A stretch of DNA of 64,000 nucleotides from Planctomycetota bacterium (GTDB lineage: Bacteria; Planctomycetota; UBA1135; JAKEFM01): assembly GCA_022616055.1 (NCBI GenBank), contig JAKEFM010000003.1:1-64000 (forward strand), given 5' to 3'. The notes under the pieces were generated by a model. That model searched no databases and was not told the origin of the DNA. It worked only from the letters and a program-made list of their open reading frames with translations. Of the stretch, positions 40,049-46,408 are shown piece after piece. The position numbers and the translations under genes were made by a program. Position 1 is the first letter of the stretch. Each line of letters starts with the position of its first letter.

Positions 40049-41503
40049 TCATCGGTCGCGCAGCGCCTTCACGTCGGTCCGAAGGGCCTCCAGCCTCTCC
40101 TCGATGCGCCTCAGGTGGCCCGACACATCAGTATCCAATTTGGCTTCCGCCTCGCGCGGAGCGACGCGATCGAGATCCGCGCGCAGCACGTAGCCGGGCG
40201 GGGTCGTGCTCCACGGCTCCCGGCGATCCATCAGGCCCTTCCCGAGCAGGAACAGCCGCTCCGTGTCGTCCGGGTTGAACGCGTCGACGGAGAGCTCGAG
40301 CCCGTCCGGCATCGTCTGGAACCGGAACTCCGCGCCCCAGGCGCGCGTCAACATGTACAGGTGCAGGACATGCTCCGACACCATCGTGTAGCTCATCATC
40401 GTGACCGTCCGCAGGGCGATCGCGAGCGTGTCGCGCTGCACTTCCACGGGGCGCGCTCGGAGGGAACCGTTGTGGATCACGTAGAGCGTCGCGTCGACGT
40501 CGTCCCAGCTCATCCCCGCACGGTCCGCCGACAGGTATCCGTCGAACACGTTCTGCGGAATGAAGAGGGGTCGGACCACCGCCCCGTCGACGTGGAGCTC
40601 GTCCCTCCGACCGTGGGTGAACCGCACGGGCGGGTACACCACCGGTATCGCGGCCGATGCGGCCAGCACGTCCCGGAATAGCTCCAGAGCTTCCGGGCCG
40701 CCGCGCGACGCGATCGCGCCGAGATCCCAGACGCAGAAGTGCCCGACGTCGAGATTGGTCGAGCCGACCCAGCACCGCCGGCCCTCGGCGTGTCGCGCGG
40801 CGACGGCCTGCAACAGCGACTCGTCGACGGCCCGCGCGATCGAGGCGCGGAGCGGGGAATTGTCCGCGAGCGACTCGTCCCACAGCACGGAGGGCATCAA
40901 CCCCTTCTCGCGGTGCAGGTCGCCGGGCTGGATGCGCCGGAACAGCTCCTCGAGCCGGTCGTCGAACGCGGGGCCCGCGAAGGCGAACGGCGCCATCAGG
41001 GCTCCCACGCTGACCCCGGTCACGCACCGGAAGTCCGGACGGTCGCCCCGGGCCGTCCAGGCCGTGAGGATGCCCGCGCCGAACGCGCCGTTCACGCCTC
41101 CCGAGCTGAGCACCAGCATGTCGAAATCGCGGCGTCCGTCGGCCGGCACGGGGAGGCGCGCGAACTGCGCGACGGCGTCGTCGAACGAGGCCTGGAACGC
41201 TTCGCTGGGGTACCCGTCGACCGCGCGCACATCCGCGAACGCAGGAAGGGGTTCGACTTGGCCCGGATGGTCCGGGAGCGTGGCGAACCGCGTCGGCCAG
41301 CCGCACCCTCCCCCGGCGAGGCCCGCCGCCAGCGCCACGGTGAACCTGTTGGACGCCGCCATGCGGAGAGCGACGGGTCTTCGATCGACGGCCTCGAGCG
41401 CCCGCTTCGCCTCGCTCGGGAGCGTGGGGCGCTCCTCCGGCGAGTGCGGATGGGCCGCGGCCGACTCCTCCGCGAGAAACAGCTTGTAGATCGGTCGTGA
41501 CAT
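40049..41503 (-). CDS. Patatin-like phospholipase
   Basis: A 484-residue patatin-family lipid acyl hydrolase. SGGVNGAFGAGIL (134-146) is the oxyanion loop, GVSVG carries nucleophile Ser165, and LHVDGAVV holds the catalytic Asp of the D-G-A motif. AGAGAGG about seven bases ahead supports the ATG at 41503. A second possible start is Met48 at 41362, which would give MAASNRFTVALAAGLAGG, a lipoprotein-like signal; in that case the first 47 residues are not made. Lipid substrate unknown. It follows GT39 in order but has no clear functional link. Confidence 0.78.
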   Translation of the reverse strand: MSRPIYKLFLAEESAAAHPHSPEERPTLPSEAKRALEAVDRRPVALRMAASNRFTVALAAGLAGGGCGWPTRFATLPDHPGQVEPLPAFADVRAVDGYPSEAFQASFDDAVAQFARLPVPADGRRDFDMLVLSSGGVNGAFGAGILTAWTARGDRPDFRCVTGVSVGALMAPFAFAGPAFDDRLEELFRRIQPGDLHREKGLMPSVLWDESLADNSPLRASIARAVDESLLQAVAARHAEGRRCWVGSTNLDVGHFCVWDLGAIASRGGPEALELFRDVLAASAAIPVVYPPVRFTHGRRDELHVDGAVVRPLFIPQNVFDGYLSADRAGMSWDDVDATLYVIHNGSLRARPVEVQRDTLAIALRTVTMMSYTMVSEHVLHLYMLTRAWGAEFRFQTMPDGLELSVDAFNPDDTERLFLLGKGLMDRREPWSTTPPGYVLRADLDRVAPREAEAKLDTDVSGHLRRIEERLEALRTDVKALRDR

Positions 41504-42097
41504 CGCATGCCTCTCTCTGGAGGTTATCCGGGCGACGACGCTCATCGACCACGCTCCATGTCCTGCAGCGCTCCGACCTTACTTGGCCGGGCCGTGAAGC
41601 GCGAAGACGGCCCGCGGCGCCGATTCGAGACGAGGGTCGCCGTCGGGGATGAGAGCGGGTCGGAGGGGACATCCTGCGGTCGTCTTCGCGGACGGCGGGC
41701 CTCCGTCTCAATCTATCCCCTCTGTCTCCAGCCCCGCGACGAGTCGATCCTCGGACGGGGCGTCCCACCCGGGCTCAGGTCGCACCGAGCCGGTGGGTCC
41801 CCATGGCGTCCTTGCGGGGGGGGGCCAGCCTCTCCTCCTCGAACCTCCCGGCGAGCGGCGCGCCCGCACCCCCTTCCGCGCCCGCGCTCCGGAGGTTGCC
41901 GCGCGCCGCGCCCGCCGGCCGGGAGGTGGGCTCCGCCCGCCGGCCACCCAGGGTTCCAGGGGGCGTAGAAACGGCCGGCACGCGCGGGAGGCTCCGGCGG
42001 ACTCGGATGCCGCGCGTCGCGGCCGTTCTCGGGGTGTCTCGAGGGGCGGGCGACCGCCCCGGTCCACCCTGCCGGACCTCCGGTTCGGGCTGGAGGG
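41504..42097. other. Long intergenic region without a recognisable gene
   Basis: No frame here has the codon pattern or any family motif of the neighbouring genes; open frames on both strands are Arg/Pro/Ser-rich shadows. A direct repeat GCCCGCCGGCC is found at 41910-41920 and 41935-41945. The part next to the patatin gene (41504-41760) is the least GC-rich. A possible hairpin spans the end of the next gene. No RNA gene was recognised. Confidence 0.5.
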
Positions 42098-42106
42098 TCA
42101 GGGACC
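42061..42106 (-). terminator. Imperfect hairpin across the stop of the ZnuB-HEAT gene
   Basis: GGT/ACC, CCCTG/CAGGG (42067-42071 with 42099-42103) and CCTCC/GGAGG (42077-42081 with 42092-42096) can form one interrupted stem with a ten-base loop at the 3' end of the operon. There is no T-run. It is a weak terminator candidate only. Confidence 0.25.
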
Positions 42107-43558
42107 GAAGACCTTCCGCTCCGGGTCGTAGCGGAGCCCTTCGCGCTCCTTCTCCCACCACTCCCGCAGCGCCGCGAGCGCCTGTTTGGCCGCCGGGCCG
42201 TCCGGGTCGGAGAGGCGGGCCGCCTTCTCCTCGCGCGCGCGCAGGCAGCGGTTCGCCGCCTCGAGGCGAACCAGTCTCGCCTCTCCCCTCTCGGCGAGGT
42301 CGAGGAGGGGAGGGATCCCGGCGGTGGATCCGAGATCGAGGAGCGCCGCCGCGATCCGGAGCCTCACCCACTCGTCGTCGATCCCCCGGTCGAGGGCGGC
42401 GCGCAGCGAGGGGACGGCCGAATCGTCGCCGAGCGCCCCGAGCGCCTCGGCCGCCTTCTCGACGACCCCCGGCTCAGGATCCGCGAGGGCCTTCGCGAGG
42501 GCGGGGACCGCCTCGCGCGCGCCCCGCTTCGCCAACTCCTCGGCCGCGTGAGCGCGGACGTTCGCGTGCTCGTCGCCAAGCTGGTGGAGGAGTTCCGCCA
42601 CGCTCGTTCCGAGGCCGTGCTCGGGCTCCCCGTGGGGGTGGCCGTGGTCGATCCCCTCGGCCCGCTCCCCCCCGGGAAGGACGAGGAGGAGGAGACCCAC
42701 GGCCGCGGCGGTGCACCCGATCGCCCCGCCGGAGCGGGAGAGACGGGACGCCCCTCTCCGAGCCGCTCGTGCGGCGGCCGCGAGGAGGAGCGCCGCCGCG
42801 AAGCAGACCATGATCGTCGGTCCGCTCGGACGGTCGTAGGAGACGAGGAGTCCGGCTCCGCTCACGAGGGCGCCGACGGTCCACCCGACCGCCAGGCGCG
42901 CCCCGATCCCCCCGGCGAGGAGGGCCGCGAAGACCGCCGGGGCGATCAGGTAGCAGAAGACGAGGAGCACCCCCGCGATCTGGACGCTGCTCGTGATGAC
43001 GACCGCGAAGGTGAGATAGAAGACGAAGTCCCAGACGCGGACGCGGAGGCCGCGGCGATAGGCCTCCTCCGGATCGAGGGAGATCAGGAGGAAGCGGCGG
43101 CGAAGCGCGAAGTGGAGGGCCCCGATCGCGGCGTAGAGGGCCGCGGTCTTGCCGACCTGCGCCGGGGTCACCCAGACGATGCTCCCGGCGAGGAGGTTCT
43201 TCAGGTGCTCCGCACCGTGGGGCGAGCGCGCGGCGAGGAGGATCGCGGCGGCGCTCGCGACCGCGTAGGTGAGGCCGATCACCGCCTCCTGCGGCACGCG
43301 CTCGGTCCGGGTCCGCGTGAGGGCGAAGACGGCCGCCCCCCCCACCGCGAACAGGAGCGACCAGAGGTAGGCGGGTAGTCCGGTGGGGTCGTCTCCACGC
43401 AGGAACGCGACCGACCCGCCGAGGGCCGCGATCTGCGCGAGCGCGATGTCGACGAAGATGACCTTCCGCGCGAGCACGTGGATCCCGAGGTAGACGTGGA
43501 TCCCCGTGAGGACGAGGCAGGCGAGGAAGGGGAGGGCGAGGATCTCGAGACGGTTCAT
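42098..43558 (-). CDS. ZnuB/ABC-3 type metal permease fused to His-rich linker and HEAT repeats
   Basis: A 486-residue fusion. Residues 1-267 are an ABC-3 family permease for Zn or Mn: GIHVLARKVIFVDIALAQIAALG near 25-47, the ATPase-coupling segment DPEEAYRRG near 162-170, and VVITSSVQIAGVLLVFCYLI. An additional span lies at 278-294. A His-rich linker DHGHPHGEPEHGL follows at 304-316, and residues 318-470 are HEAT repeats (GTSVAELLHQLGDEHANVRAH, AREAVPALAKALADPEPGVV). Normal ZnuB has about 270 residues. Its ATG overlaps the ZnuA stop (ATGA). The ATPase subunit is not encoded in the operon. Confidence 0.82.
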   Translation of the reverse strand: MNRLEILALPFLACLVLTGIHVYLGIHVLARKVIFVDIALAQIAALGGSVAFLRGDDPTGLPAYLWSLLFAVGGAAVFALTRTRTERVPQEAVIGLTYAVASAAAILLAARSPHGAEHLKNLLAGSIVWVTPAQVGKTAALYAAIGALHFALRRRFLLISLDPEEAYRRGLRVRVWDFVFYLTFAVVITSSVQIAGVLLVFCYLIAPAVFAALLAGGIGARLAVGWTVGALVSGAGLLVSYDRPSGPTIMVCFAAALLLAAAARAARRGASRLSRSGGAIGCTAAAVGLLLLVLPGGERAEGIDHGHPHGEPEHGLGTSVAELLHQLGDEHANVRAHAAEELAKRGAREAVPALAKALADPEPGVVEKAAEALGALGDDSAVPSLRAALDRGIDDEWVRLRIAAALLDLGSTAGIPPLLDLAERGEARLVRLEAANRCLRAREEKAARLSDPDGPAAKQALAALREWWEKEREGLRYDPERKVFGP

Positions 43559-44589
43559 CCGGGGGCGGCCAGAGCTCCCGCGACCTCCTCGACCACCTTC
43601 CCGTGGAAGGTGACGACGTCGCGCTCCCCTCCGAACCCGCCGACCTCGAGGGGGAGGACGAGGACGGAGACCCCCGTCTTCTCCTTCAGGTAGTCGGTCG
43701 AGCGGCGCTCGACGAAGGGGCGCGTGACGAGGAAGGGGATCTTCCCCCTCTCGAGGAGCTCGCGGACCTCCTCGCGGTGCTTCGCGGAGGGCTCGATCCC
43801 GGGCTTCGGCTCCACGTTCGCCGCGACCGTGAGCCCGAACCGCCGGGCGAAGTAGGACCAGTCGCGGTGGTAGGTGACGACCGACTTCCCGGCGTGGGGC
43901 GCCATCCTCGCCAGCCAGCCGCCGAGGGACTCGCGGAGGGGCTTCCCCGTCGCGCCCGGAAGGGCGAGGGCCTCCTCCAGCCGGCCCGACTCGGCGAGAC
44001 GGACGAGGCGGTCCCCCCCCACTTCCGCGAGGAGGGCCGGTCCGAAGAACGCCTCTTCCAGCCGTCGCCGGAACGCCTTGCGGCGCTCCTCGAAGTACCG
44101 GGCCTCGGCCGGCGCGGCGCGGGCAAGGGCGGAGGCGATCGTGTCCGCCACCGGAAGCGCGTTCAGTGGGTCCGTGAGGTAGTGCGGATTCCCGAACGGG
44201 TGGACGTCCCCCTCGGCGCGGCTCGCTCCCGCGGCCGGGACCTCGAGGACCGAGATCCCGGCGGAGCAGTCGACGAAGCCGCTCCCCCCTCGGACGATCC
44301 GGGGGTTCCGGGCCCCCTCCGTGATCGGCCCGAGCCATCCGACCTCGTAGTCGAGGCCGTTCACGAGGAGGAGGTCCGCGTCGCGCAGGGTCGCGATGAA
44401 GGAGGGCTTGGGGTCGAGGAAGTGAGGGTCCTGCCGGGGCGCACAGAGCGCCTCGACCGTGACGCGGTCCCCGCCGACCTCCTCGCAGATCGCCTTGAGA
44501 CTCGGCAGGGTCGCGACGACGCGGACCGGCGAGGCCGCGCTCGTGGCGGGGAGGAAGGAGACCAGGAGAGTCGAGATGAGGGTTTTCAT
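43555..44589 (-). CDS. ZnuA-like metal-binding ABC transporter lipoprotein/periplasmic protein
   Basis: A 344-residue cluster A-I solute-binding protein for Zn or Mn. Residues 1-18 are a signal peptide. PRQDPHFLDPKPSF carries the first metal His, VHPFGNPHYLTDPLN the second pair, and VTYHRDWSYFARRFGL the third His; VLPLEVGGFG stands near the C-terminal Asp/Glu. The His-rich loop of ZnuA is absent. It lies nine bases after a porin gene and overlaps the permease gene by ATGA, so delivery to that permease is clear. Metal choice cannot be told by reading. Confidence 0.86.
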   Translation of the reverse strand: MKTLISTLLVSFLPATSAASPVRVVATLPSLKAICEEVGGDRVTVEALCAPRQDPHFLDPKPSFIATLRDADLLLVNGLDYEVGWLGPITEGARNPRIVRGGSGFVDCSAGISVLEVPAAGASRAEGDVHPFGNPHYLTDPLNALPVADTIASALARAAPAEARYFEERRKAFRRRLEEAFFGPALLAEVGGDRLVRLAESGRLEEALALPGATGKPLRESLGGWLARMAPHAGKSVVTYHRDWSYFARRFGLTVAANVEPKPGIEPSAKHREEVRELLERGKIPFLVTRPFVERRSTDYLKEKTGVSVLVLPLEVGGFGGERDVVTFHGKVVEEVAGALAAPG

Positions 44590-44598
44590 CGGGATCCC

Positions 44599-45975
44599 TT
44601 AGAACTTGTGCGCCGCATGGGTGCCGATCAGGAACTCGAGCTGGAGGACGAAGGAGGAGACGAGGCGGTCGTCGAGGTGGGCGGCCCGGTCGAGCCCGTA
44701 CTCGAACCGCAGTTTCGAGAACTCCGTCGGGTACCAGGTGAGGGCGAGAGCGCCGCGAGCGCGTCGGTCCCTAAGGGGATCGTCCGACCGCGCAAGCCCT
44801 CCGTCCCCGTTCGCGTAGTCGACCCGCCCCCCCGCGGTCCATCGGTCGAAGAAGCCCCAGACGACCTGCGAGTAGCCTCCGAAGTCGTCCAGGGTCTCGT
44901 CGGGGGCCCCGGTCGACGGGTCGGCCGCCGCCTCGAGGTCGCGCCAGGCGGCCTCCGTCTGCCAGGAGACGAAGGGGAATCCCCGCCTCGCCTCGATCGG
45001 CTTCCAGCGCAGGTAGAGGTCGGCGCCGTAGATCGCCGTCCTCTCGTGCGGACCCGTCGCGTTGTCCCCGAACATCGCCGAGACCCCGCCGAGGAGGGTC
45101 GTCGTCTCGGAGAGGTCGGTCGAGGCGGAGAGGCGCAGCGTCGTGGCCAGGTCTCGCACCCCCTCGACGTCCTCGTCCAGGAGGGAGTGCCCCCCGAGGG
45201 TCTGCGTGGGGTCGGTCGGGTCGTCCGTGGGCTCGAAGGAGAAGCTCCTCCCGTTCTCCCCGTCGGCCTGCTGCAGGCTCGCGAGTCCCTCGAGGAAGAA
45301 GGAGGTCGGCGCGATCCAGGAGAGTTCTAGCCCGGGATTGCGGAAACCGTCCGGGCCGAAGAAGCGCGGCAGGAAGAGGGGGATGGTCGAGAACTCCCAC
45401 GCGTGGGCATGCATGGAGTTGTGCCGCCCGAAGTGGGTGAACCACTCGCCCGCGAGGAGGCGCAGGTTCCCCGGCAGCGCCCGGGTCTTCCCGTAGGCTT
45501 CCTCGAGCTCTAGCCCAGTCTCCCCCTCCTCGACCGACATCACCGGGATCACGGTGAGGTCGAAGTAGGGGTCGACCGCGTTCTCGAAGACGAACTCGAG
45601 GTTCGTGATCTTGAACCCTCGGGGGACCGGGTCGTGGCCGCCGAAGAGCCCGGGATCCTCCCTGGAGAAGGCGGCGGCGTCGAAGAGGAGGTCGACGGAG
45701 ATCCTCGGGTTGAGGAGGGAGGAGGCCTGCGGGGCGGCGGGGCCCGCCCCCGGGGCCTCGGAGGGCTTTGCGAGAAGGCGGTCGAGGGCTTCGTCGAGGC
45801 CCGACCGGGGGGCGGTCTCGGGTGTCCGCTGCGCCCCGAGCTCCCGCTCGAGGCGGCGGATGCGCTCCTCCGCGGCGCGAAGGCGCTCCTCGACCGTGGG
45901 CTCCTGCCCCTGCGCCCGCGAGAGCGGGGCGAGGAGGAGGCCTGCGGCGAGGCTCTGAAGGCGGAAACGGTCCAT
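44599..45975 (-). CDS. Porin-like outer membrane protein with N-terminal coiled coil
   Basis: A 458-residue outer membrane protein. Signal peptide at 1-20, then a short coiled coil at about 27-48 (RLRAAEERIRRLERELGAQR), typical of periplasmic peptidoglycan-linked porins. The remainder is amphipathic beta strands from about 90 to the C-terminal Phe (THAAHKF), with acidic turns such as ADGENGRSFSFEPTDD. AAGGAG nine bases before the ATG at 45975 fixes the start. Its place in front of znuA suggests metal passage across the outer membrane, as with other porins linked to ZnuABC systems; that function is inference. Confidence 0.75.
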   Translation of the reverse strand: MDRFRLQSLAAGLLLAPLSRAQGQEPTVEERLRAAEERIRRLERELGAQRTPETAPRSGLDEALDRLLAKPSEAPGAGPAAPQASSLLNPRISVDLLFDAAAFSREDPGLFGGHDPVPRGFKITNLEFVFENAVDPYFDLTVIPVMSVEEGETGLELEEAYGKTRALPGNLRLLAGEWFTHFGRHNSMHAHAWEFSTIPLFLPRFFGPDGFRNPGLELSWIAPTSFFLEGLASLQQADGENGRSFSFEPTDDPTDPTQTLGGHSLLDEDVEGVRDLATTLRLSASTDLSETTTLLGGVSAMFGDNATGPHERTAIYGADLYLRWKPIEARRGFPFVSWQTEAAWRDLEAAADPSTGAPDETLDDFGGYSQVVWGFFDRWTAGGRVDYANGDGGLARSDDPLRDRRARGALALTWYPTEFSKLRFEYGLDRAAHLDDRLVSSFVLQLEFLIGTHAAHKF

Positions 45976-46054: not shown

Positions 46055-46408
46055 CTAGGCCGCGGGAGGAGCGCGCGCGTCGGCGAGCCGGACGCCGCAT
46101 CCGGCGGTGGGCGGCTCGGAGAGGGGCGGAGCGGCGGGCGAGTCGAGGGCGGGACCGGCGAGGAGGAGGGGCGCGACGAGCACGGGGCCCGCGTTCGCGC
46201 GGTACCAGCGACAGACCGGGCAGGTCCCTTCGAGGTGGACGTCGGGGGCGCCCGAGGAGCCGGCAGGGGCGAGCCGCGGATCGTGCGGGATCGCGTCCGC
46301 GTGGCGCGGCTCGGCGCCGAGGAGTCCGTGGGTCGAAGGGGCGCCGAGGAGGGCGAGGAGATAGAGCGCGAGGAGGAGGAGCGCCCCGGAGCCTCCGAGC
46401 CGGCGCAT
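46055..46408 (-). CDS. Small membrane protein with a C-x-x-C motif (DUF2946-like)
   Basis: A 117-residue protein. Residues 1-28 form a signal or first span. After His-containing sequence (RHADAIPHDPR), EGTCPVCRWYRAN holds a CxxC, followed by a second hydrophobic segment PVLVAPLLLAGPAL. The tail GCGVRLADARAPPAA is typical of DUF2946-like small proteins often found near metal or copper transport genes. It stands first in the porin-ZnuA-ZnuB operon. A metal-sensing or chaperone role is inference. No Zur-like palindrome was found in the 36-base gap ahead. Confidence 0.6.
   Translation of the reverse strand: MRRLGGSGALLLLALYLLALLGAPSTHGLLGAEPRHADAIPHDPRLAPAGSSGAPDVHLEGTCPVCRWYRANAGPVLVAPLLLAGPALDSPAAPPLSEPPTAGCGVRLADARAPPAA

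Follow-up and report, generated by a model that had tools for sequence, protein, structure and literature searches.

An ATPase-free clade of ABC-3 metal permeases that includes a permease fused to HEAT repeats

Introduction

The closest described systems to the locus analyzed here are the type II Mn/Zn importers PsaBC/MntBC and ZnuBC, which share with it the permease fold and a cluster A-I binding protein. Published accounts describe nine spans in PsaC (PMC9820375), a metal held by PsaC Asp46 and His50 (PMC11779740), and, in MntC, a triad of Asp47, His51, and Asp94 that is essential for transport, together with a C-terminal extension placed in the cytosol (PMC8487065). In the zinc ABC systems of Paracoccus, the interaction between binding protein and permease is described as highly specific (PMC7731109). 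Our literature search did not retrieve a ZnuBC structure paper, and the full text of open-licence papers yielded no description of a permease–HEAT fusion or of ATPase-free ABC-3 permeases.

Uptake that is fed by a binding protein and independent of ATP is known from the TRAP transporters, which share this feature with the function proposed below; their membrane proteins are unrelated, their substrates are organic acids, and they are driven by sodium. The solitary BioY, an ECF-group permease that was reportedly found by Finkenwirth in 2013 to work without an ATPase module, is likewise a permease of an ATP-driven family acting, or seeming to act, alone; its fold is unrelated to that of the ABC-3 permeases, and it has no binding protein. 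ABC importers are defined by ATP, and a large natural set of permeases that lack the ATPase but retain the binding protein allows the contribution of the ATPase to be asked about directly, as well as whether the membrane half alone moves metal and by what route a pump turns into a carrier driven by a gradient. Here, we describe such a set, starting from a 64,000-nucleotide stretch of planctomycetote DNA (the window).

Results

The permease–HEAT fusion

Compared with PsaBC/MntBC and ZnuBC, the fusion operon in the window lacks an ATPase gene and has a charged coupling face, and its permease has an additional transmembrane span and a HEAT tail. The permease is encoded by a single minus-strand frame of 486 codons (42098–43558) without internal stops. 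Pfam assigned residues 6–262 to ABC-3 (PF00950, E 2e-28), which was also found in all 77 clade rows scanned, and residues 321–395 to HEAT_2 (E 2e-17), with 2 other HEAT models (HEAT_PBS and HEAT) also above the Pfam cut-off from residue 321 onward. A structure model of the fusion, built from nine related sequences (mean pLDDT 78), had ten long potential membrane-spanning helices, disorder at residues 295–317, and a helical repeat domain. On the minus strand, the fusion comprises (i) a permease core (residues 1–268; 42755–43558) of nine spans with a PsaC-like fold, for which a structure search with the predicted model gave a TM-score of 0.80 by target length against PsaC (7kyp); (ii) a tenth span (residues 272–293 in the model, about 272–294 by hydropathy; 42680–42745); (iii) a His-rich linker (residues 298–317; 42608–42667), predicted to be periplasmic and modeled with low confidence, the segment after the tenth span reading GIDHGHPHGEPEHG; and (iv) a domain of tandem HEAT repeats (residues 320–474; 42137–42601), also predicted to be periplasmic, which is recognized by Pfam and resembles artificial HEAT-like alphaRep proteins in the structure search.

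The fusion had been proposed in a preliminary description of the sequence, and it is borne out by the single frame, by the Pfam domains, and by its recurrence: the genome scan found the same domain order, read through, in separate assemblies (loci L033, L035, L036, and L037). L033 and L035, from records named Acidobacteria, are 54–55% identical to the fusion, and L037 is from a record named Myxococcales. Since the fusion recurs in separate assemblies, it is not a joining error. A stop between residues 267 and 300, the sign by which such an error was to be recognized, is absent; the in-frame TAG of the otherwise intact L034 fusion (L034 4095–4097) lies outside this interval, at about residue 162 within the coupling region, and may reflect an error, decay, or read-through. 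In 2 Nitrospinota records (L038 and L039), the permease has no tail.

The operon

The gene upstream of the permease (43555–44589, minus strand) encodes a cluster A-I metal-binding protein of the ZnuA type (Pfam PF01297, E 2e-42), in agreement with the partner named in the preliminary description; the end of this gene and the start of the permease gene share 4 bases. Alignment with solved relatives matched the metal-site histidines of its family. The first gene of this conserved trio (44599–45975, minus strand) had no Pfam match and was modeled as an outer-membrane beta-barrel porin (pLDDT 66, with low confidence in parts) similar to porins such as DcaP and OprP. Porin, binding protein, and permease were the only plausible genes that recur widely near the clade.

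Other neighbors are more scattered. Just upstream of the porin lies a gene for a small CPVC-motif protein (46055–46408, minus strand), weakly DUF2946-like (E 0.031; 15.5 bits, below the family cut-off of 23.7), and small proteins with Cys pairs also occur near the operon in L038, L039, L094, and L097. A gene for a patatin-like phospholipase (40049–41545) lies downstream of the fusion on the same strand. An additional co-occurring gene was rejected as a general partner, the LolD-type ATPase near the operon being present in one family only (L094, L096, and L097). In L094 (9232–13694) and L097 (2582–5284), this ATPase is accompanied by an FtsX/MacB-type permease; in L094, the pair comes after the porin and binding protein on the strand that does not carry the ATPase-free permease. 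L097, the one of these 3 loci covered by the Pfam scan, also has DUF3299. The genes of the 3 loci partly resemble the zinc-linked zrgBC described in PMC9820375, which makes no mention of DUF3299. A FecCD permease with its ATPase, a possible ATPase lender, lies directly upstream of the porin in L033 (182–2315), L035 (226–2050), and L040 (136–2032).

A clade without the ATPase gene

Of 392 genomes of the phylum searched with a permease-only profile (A2), 89 gave a match at E up to 1e-25; neighborhoods were fetched for 40 and then for 40 more. Clade membership was defined by E below 1e-45 (32 genomes), and the fragments L190 and L191 were added. The porin–binding protein–permease operon without an ATPase was present in 34 of the 392 genomes. 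Set 1 contained 39 loci with context (the window and 38 others, including seven distinct named loci; L036 was dropped before counting, as it is on the same contig as L093). At 38 of these loci, no more than about 153 bases separate the binding-protein stop from the start of the permease, the exception being L094, in which the binding protein is on the other strand. By contrast, in sister operons of the same phylum (e.g., L126 and L130–L132), which have the same porin, binding-protein, and permease families and are in some cases HEAT-tailed, the ATPase lies between binding protein and permease: in nine of nine sisters, 732–1048 bases separate the 2 genes and hold a ZnuC-like ATPase gene. An adjacent ATPase was likewise found in 37 of the 42 rows of a later batch, the other five comprising two with an ATPase further off, one contig end, and two clade fragments. 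L168 and L189, whose ATPase lies beyond the 600-base cut, were still counted among the ATPase-bearing rows, as was L166, at a contig end, with its ATPase unseen; the clade fragments L190 and L191 were removed from the ATPase-bearing set.

In a maximum-likelihood tree, 38 ATPase-free and 17 ATPase-bearing rows were separated by one change, on a branch supported at 100/100. The canonical Mn/Zn permeases fall on the ATPase-bearing side of this branch, and the loss of the ATPase is thus best read as a single event. L034 and L040, with incomplete frames, were left out of residue counts and trees, L119 was left out of this tree, and L114 was left out of alignment A6. In the second phylum, that of L037, the same profile matched 39 of 282 genomes at E up to 1e-50, including that of L037. 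Set 2 comprised 38 loci fetched from this phylum apart from L037; in 37 of them, i.e., all with the binding protein in sequence, the gap is −13 to 78 bases with no intervening ATPase. L225 has an opposite-strand ATPase about 1.1 kb downstream. Over both sets, the permease gene comes immediately after that of the binding protein at 75 of 77 loci, and a quick tree of 129 rows (76 ATPase-free and 53 ATPase-bearing) again required one change. Lack of the ATPase is fixed across the clade rather than a local accident, and the comparison of these rows showed the ATPase-free permeases to form one clade with an apparently single ATPase loss. Two nearly identical permeases (L110 and L112) come from genomes with different family codes (G114 and G130), which may reflect recent transfer or a binning mix-up.

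Search for the ATPase

The absence of an ATPase from the operon and the window, pointed out in the preliminary description, was confirmed: neither the operon nor its surroundings contain a dedicated ABC ATPase gene, and PF00005 gave zero matches on the contig of the window. The assembly (5.78 Mb, 394 contigs, 94.6% complete) has 55 ABC_tran matches, 20 of which were classified with NCBIfam. According to best matches, only one of these 20, on contig 169, reads as a type II importer ATPase (BtuD/Fec-like); the remainder resemble exporters, LptB, PstB, and a nitrate/taurine type. The contig-169 ATPase adjoins a binding protein and a FecCD permease that is the sole other ABC-3 match in the genome. 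It is also the best match of the genome to an ABC-3 ATPase profile (A3), at 160 bits; ATPases adjoining the sister permeases, several of which helped build the profile, score 227–409 bits. The suggestion to look for the ATPase gene elsewhere in the genome therefore led to no ABC-3-type ATPase in this 94.6% complete assembly.

Among the 32 clade genomes, our reading of the profile scores (ABC-3 versus heme-type model) gave no ABC-3-type ATPase in 18, including the genome of the window, and one elsewhere in the other 14. The heme-type model matched in 32 of 38 genomes searched, some of these matches being ABC-3-type ATPases, and most genomes carry some type II importer ATPase. Four clade genomes (G131, G244, G263, and G289) had neither an ABC-3-type nor a heme-type match; three of the four are only 80–82% complete, and G244 has a weaker match to the ABC-3 profile. 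A detached partner ATPase was considered and rejected: the neighborhoods of 11 ABC-3-type ATPases, read by eye, are mostly ordinary Mn/Zn systems in which a dedicated binding protein and permease accompany the ATPase (clear in L133, L134, and L136–L141, partial in L143, and ambiguous in L135 and L142). The remaining three of the 14 genomes (G003, G035, and G114) hold sister operons. Judged by their gene contexts, the ABC-3-type ATPases elsewhere in clade genomes are not obviously freed partners.

The coupling region

Residues 159–175 (43034–43084, minus strand) form a cytosolic loop that aligns with the stretch between spans of PsaC/MntC; in type II importers, the corresponding loop contacts the ATPase. 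In the clade, this coupling region is charged and variable. Relative to the rest of the protein, its mean identity is 0.77 for the clade, compared with 1.20 for 49 ATPase-bearing rows, and in a scan with a 17-residue window, starts at 150–160 ranked first for relative loss of conservation. Comparison between clade and sisters revealed that (i) residue 169 is charged in 62% versus 0% and apolar in 14% versus 84%; (ii) residues 165 and 168 are charged in 49% versus 2% and 43% versus 0%, respectively; (iii) Asp162 is retained in 20 of 39 versus 49 of 49 rows; and (iv) Arg was gained in the clade at positions 82, 153, and 221, which are cytosolic by span counting. For the face formed by residues 161, 165, 168, and 169, which were picked after set 1 was seen, the median hydropathy in set 1 is −2.17, compared with +1.25 in the sisters and +2.15 in eight canonical permeases; it exceeds zero in six of 38 set-1 rows. 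In set 2, it is −1.75 over 36 scored rows, a value that stands beside no ATPase-bearing controls from the second phylum. No score could be obtained for one row of set 1 and three rows of set 2. As the rows share ancestry, the values of the rank test do not represent probabilities of independent events.

Single residues prove little, because Escherichia coli ZnuB, an ATPase user, deviates at some face sites, with Asp at site 169 and no Asp at 162. Taken together, the alignments show a changed ATPase-receiving surface, apparently no longer conserved as a coupling region, in both phyla sampled. Ala166, Gly170, and Trp176-Asp177 near the loop remain conserved in the clade, and some cytosolic contact may therefore remain.

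Membrane residues and the metal site

The first 267 residues had been regarded as a normal ZnuB-type permease, a view that the charged coupling residues and the metal site do not support. In the alignment, the positions of the canonical Asp-His-Asp triad of MntC, and with them those of PsaC Asp46 and His50, are occupied by Ile38, Gln42, and Glu91, and the fusion has 2 new titratable residues, His27 and Asp37. His27 (codon 43478–43480, minus strand) is present in 78 of 78 ATPase-free rows and in 6 of 49 sisters, 40 of which have Phe or Tyr. Asp37 (43448–43450, minus strand) is likewise invariant (78/78) and is found in none of the 49 ATPase-bearing sisters, 45 of which have Gly. Glu91 (43286–43288, minus strand), aligned to Asp94 of Bacillus anthracis MntC, occurs in all 78 clade rows, and the sisters have Glu (33/49) or Asp (15/49). 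Gln42 occurs in 77 of 78 clade rows and Gln or Glu in the sisters. His27, Asp37, and Glu91 would cluster in space.

The ATPase-bearing sisters (L124–L132 and L153–L189) are also without the canonical Asp-His, with mostly Ile, Val, or Ala at 38 and Gln or Glu at 42; that part of the triad was thus lost before the ATPase. Loss of the triad as proof of ATP independence was dropped for this reason. The mean identity of the core is 0.46 in the clade versus 0.34 in the sisters.

The HEAT tail and His-rich linker

The core of the relatives ends in the cytosol, and with the extra span at residues 272–293, the linker and HEAT repeats should be periplasmic. Most of the tailed rows examined have 2–5 Lys/Arg and few acidic residues in the loop before the tenth span, as expected for the inner side. 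A tail (390 residues or more in total) is present in 44 and absent in 25 of 69 complete clade rows, the other 8 rows being cut, and its presence requires six changes on the 38-versus-17 tree. Pfam saw HEAT_2 in only 24 of 77 clade rows, and many tails are thus too diverged or of another kind. HEAT repeats were found in four of seven long ATPase-bearing sisters scanned (the L175 stretch ended before its tail). Docking of the ATPase by the tail was consequently not supported: it is unlikely for a tail that is predicted to be periplasmic, optional in the clade, and present in some ATPase-bearing sisters. The linker could possibly bind metal through its histidines; linker and tail appear to be an optional addition, which may retain metal or interact with the binding protein.

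Discussion

On balance, and by somewhat better than an even chance, we favor the reading that the clade lost the ATPase gene once and then the ATPase-receiving surface, and that its permeases are ATP-independent metal importers. The porin would let the metal ion into the periplasm, where the ZnuA-type protein would capture it and pass it to a permease dimer; the membrane potential or the proton gradient, rather than ATP, would drive the metal into the cell, along a path running past the putative titratable cluster of His27, Asp37, and Glu91. The membrane potential can draw a divalent cation inward without ATP, which makes such an importer physically reasonable. We infer the energy source, the dimer, the direction of transport, the identity of the metal, and the role of the tail; the metal is likely zinc by family, with scattered support from neighboring genes. 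The wider statement that, in a clade spanning at least 2 phyla, an ABC importer shed its ATPase, kept its binding protein, and became a secondary metal transporter with a new site at His27, Asp37, and Glu91 is tentative, and we place it a little short of even.

A rather unlikely alternative is that the permease works with a borrowed ATPase from another locus, much as a single ATPase serves several sugar importers; in this genome, the lender would be the BtuD/Fec-like ATPase on contig 169. A lender exists, given the ABC-3-type ATPase elsewhere in 14 of 32 clade genomes and the type II importer ATPase in most genomes, this one included; the matches to the heme-type model, the FecCD permease–ATPase pairs directly upstream of the porin at 3 loci, and the partly conserved coupling loop also fit borrowing. 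However, coupling residues with apolar side chains in the sisters and in canonical permeases are charged in the clade, and a lender would need to engage a surface that differs from the one on its own permease; the contig-169 ATPase adjoins its own FecCD permease; and 4 genomes had no matching lender, a point weakened by the incompleteness of three and the weaker match in G244. There is next to no probability that incomplete assemblies simply leave out the ATPase gene or that the fusion is an assembly error: most of the assemblies are indeed draft or metagenome assemblies, and that of the window is incomplete, but the permease immediately follows the binding protein at nearly all loci and the fusion recurs, by which this explanation is already refuted.

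The missing ATPase, the decayed coupling face, and the tail in 44 of 69 complete members would also suit a permease that has lost transport and serves as a membrane anchor or sensor: it would tether the loaded binding protein to the inner membrane, and the HEAT tail would provide a platform in the periplasm. This is improbable, as the core is more conserved than in the sisters, the invariant titratable residues adjoin the canonical metal sites, and 25 of 69 members have no tail. A tail that replaces or docks the ATPase is no more credible than the assembly explanation: tail and ATPase absence coincide in the window, but the tail is predicted to be on the wrong side of the membrane, and there are tail-less ATPase-free members as well as tailed ATPase-bearing ones. 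For the favored reading of an ATP-independent importer, the sister operons, which differ in their intervening ATPase, apolar coupling face, and Gly37 in place of Asp37, and share the porin and binding protein, are a ready control. Labeling these genes as ABC zinc transporters overstates present knowledge.

A tandem permease pair without an ATPase occurs in L121, L122, and L228. In L121 and L122, the first permease of the pair lacks most of the coupling motif, as if the 2 formed a heterodimer.
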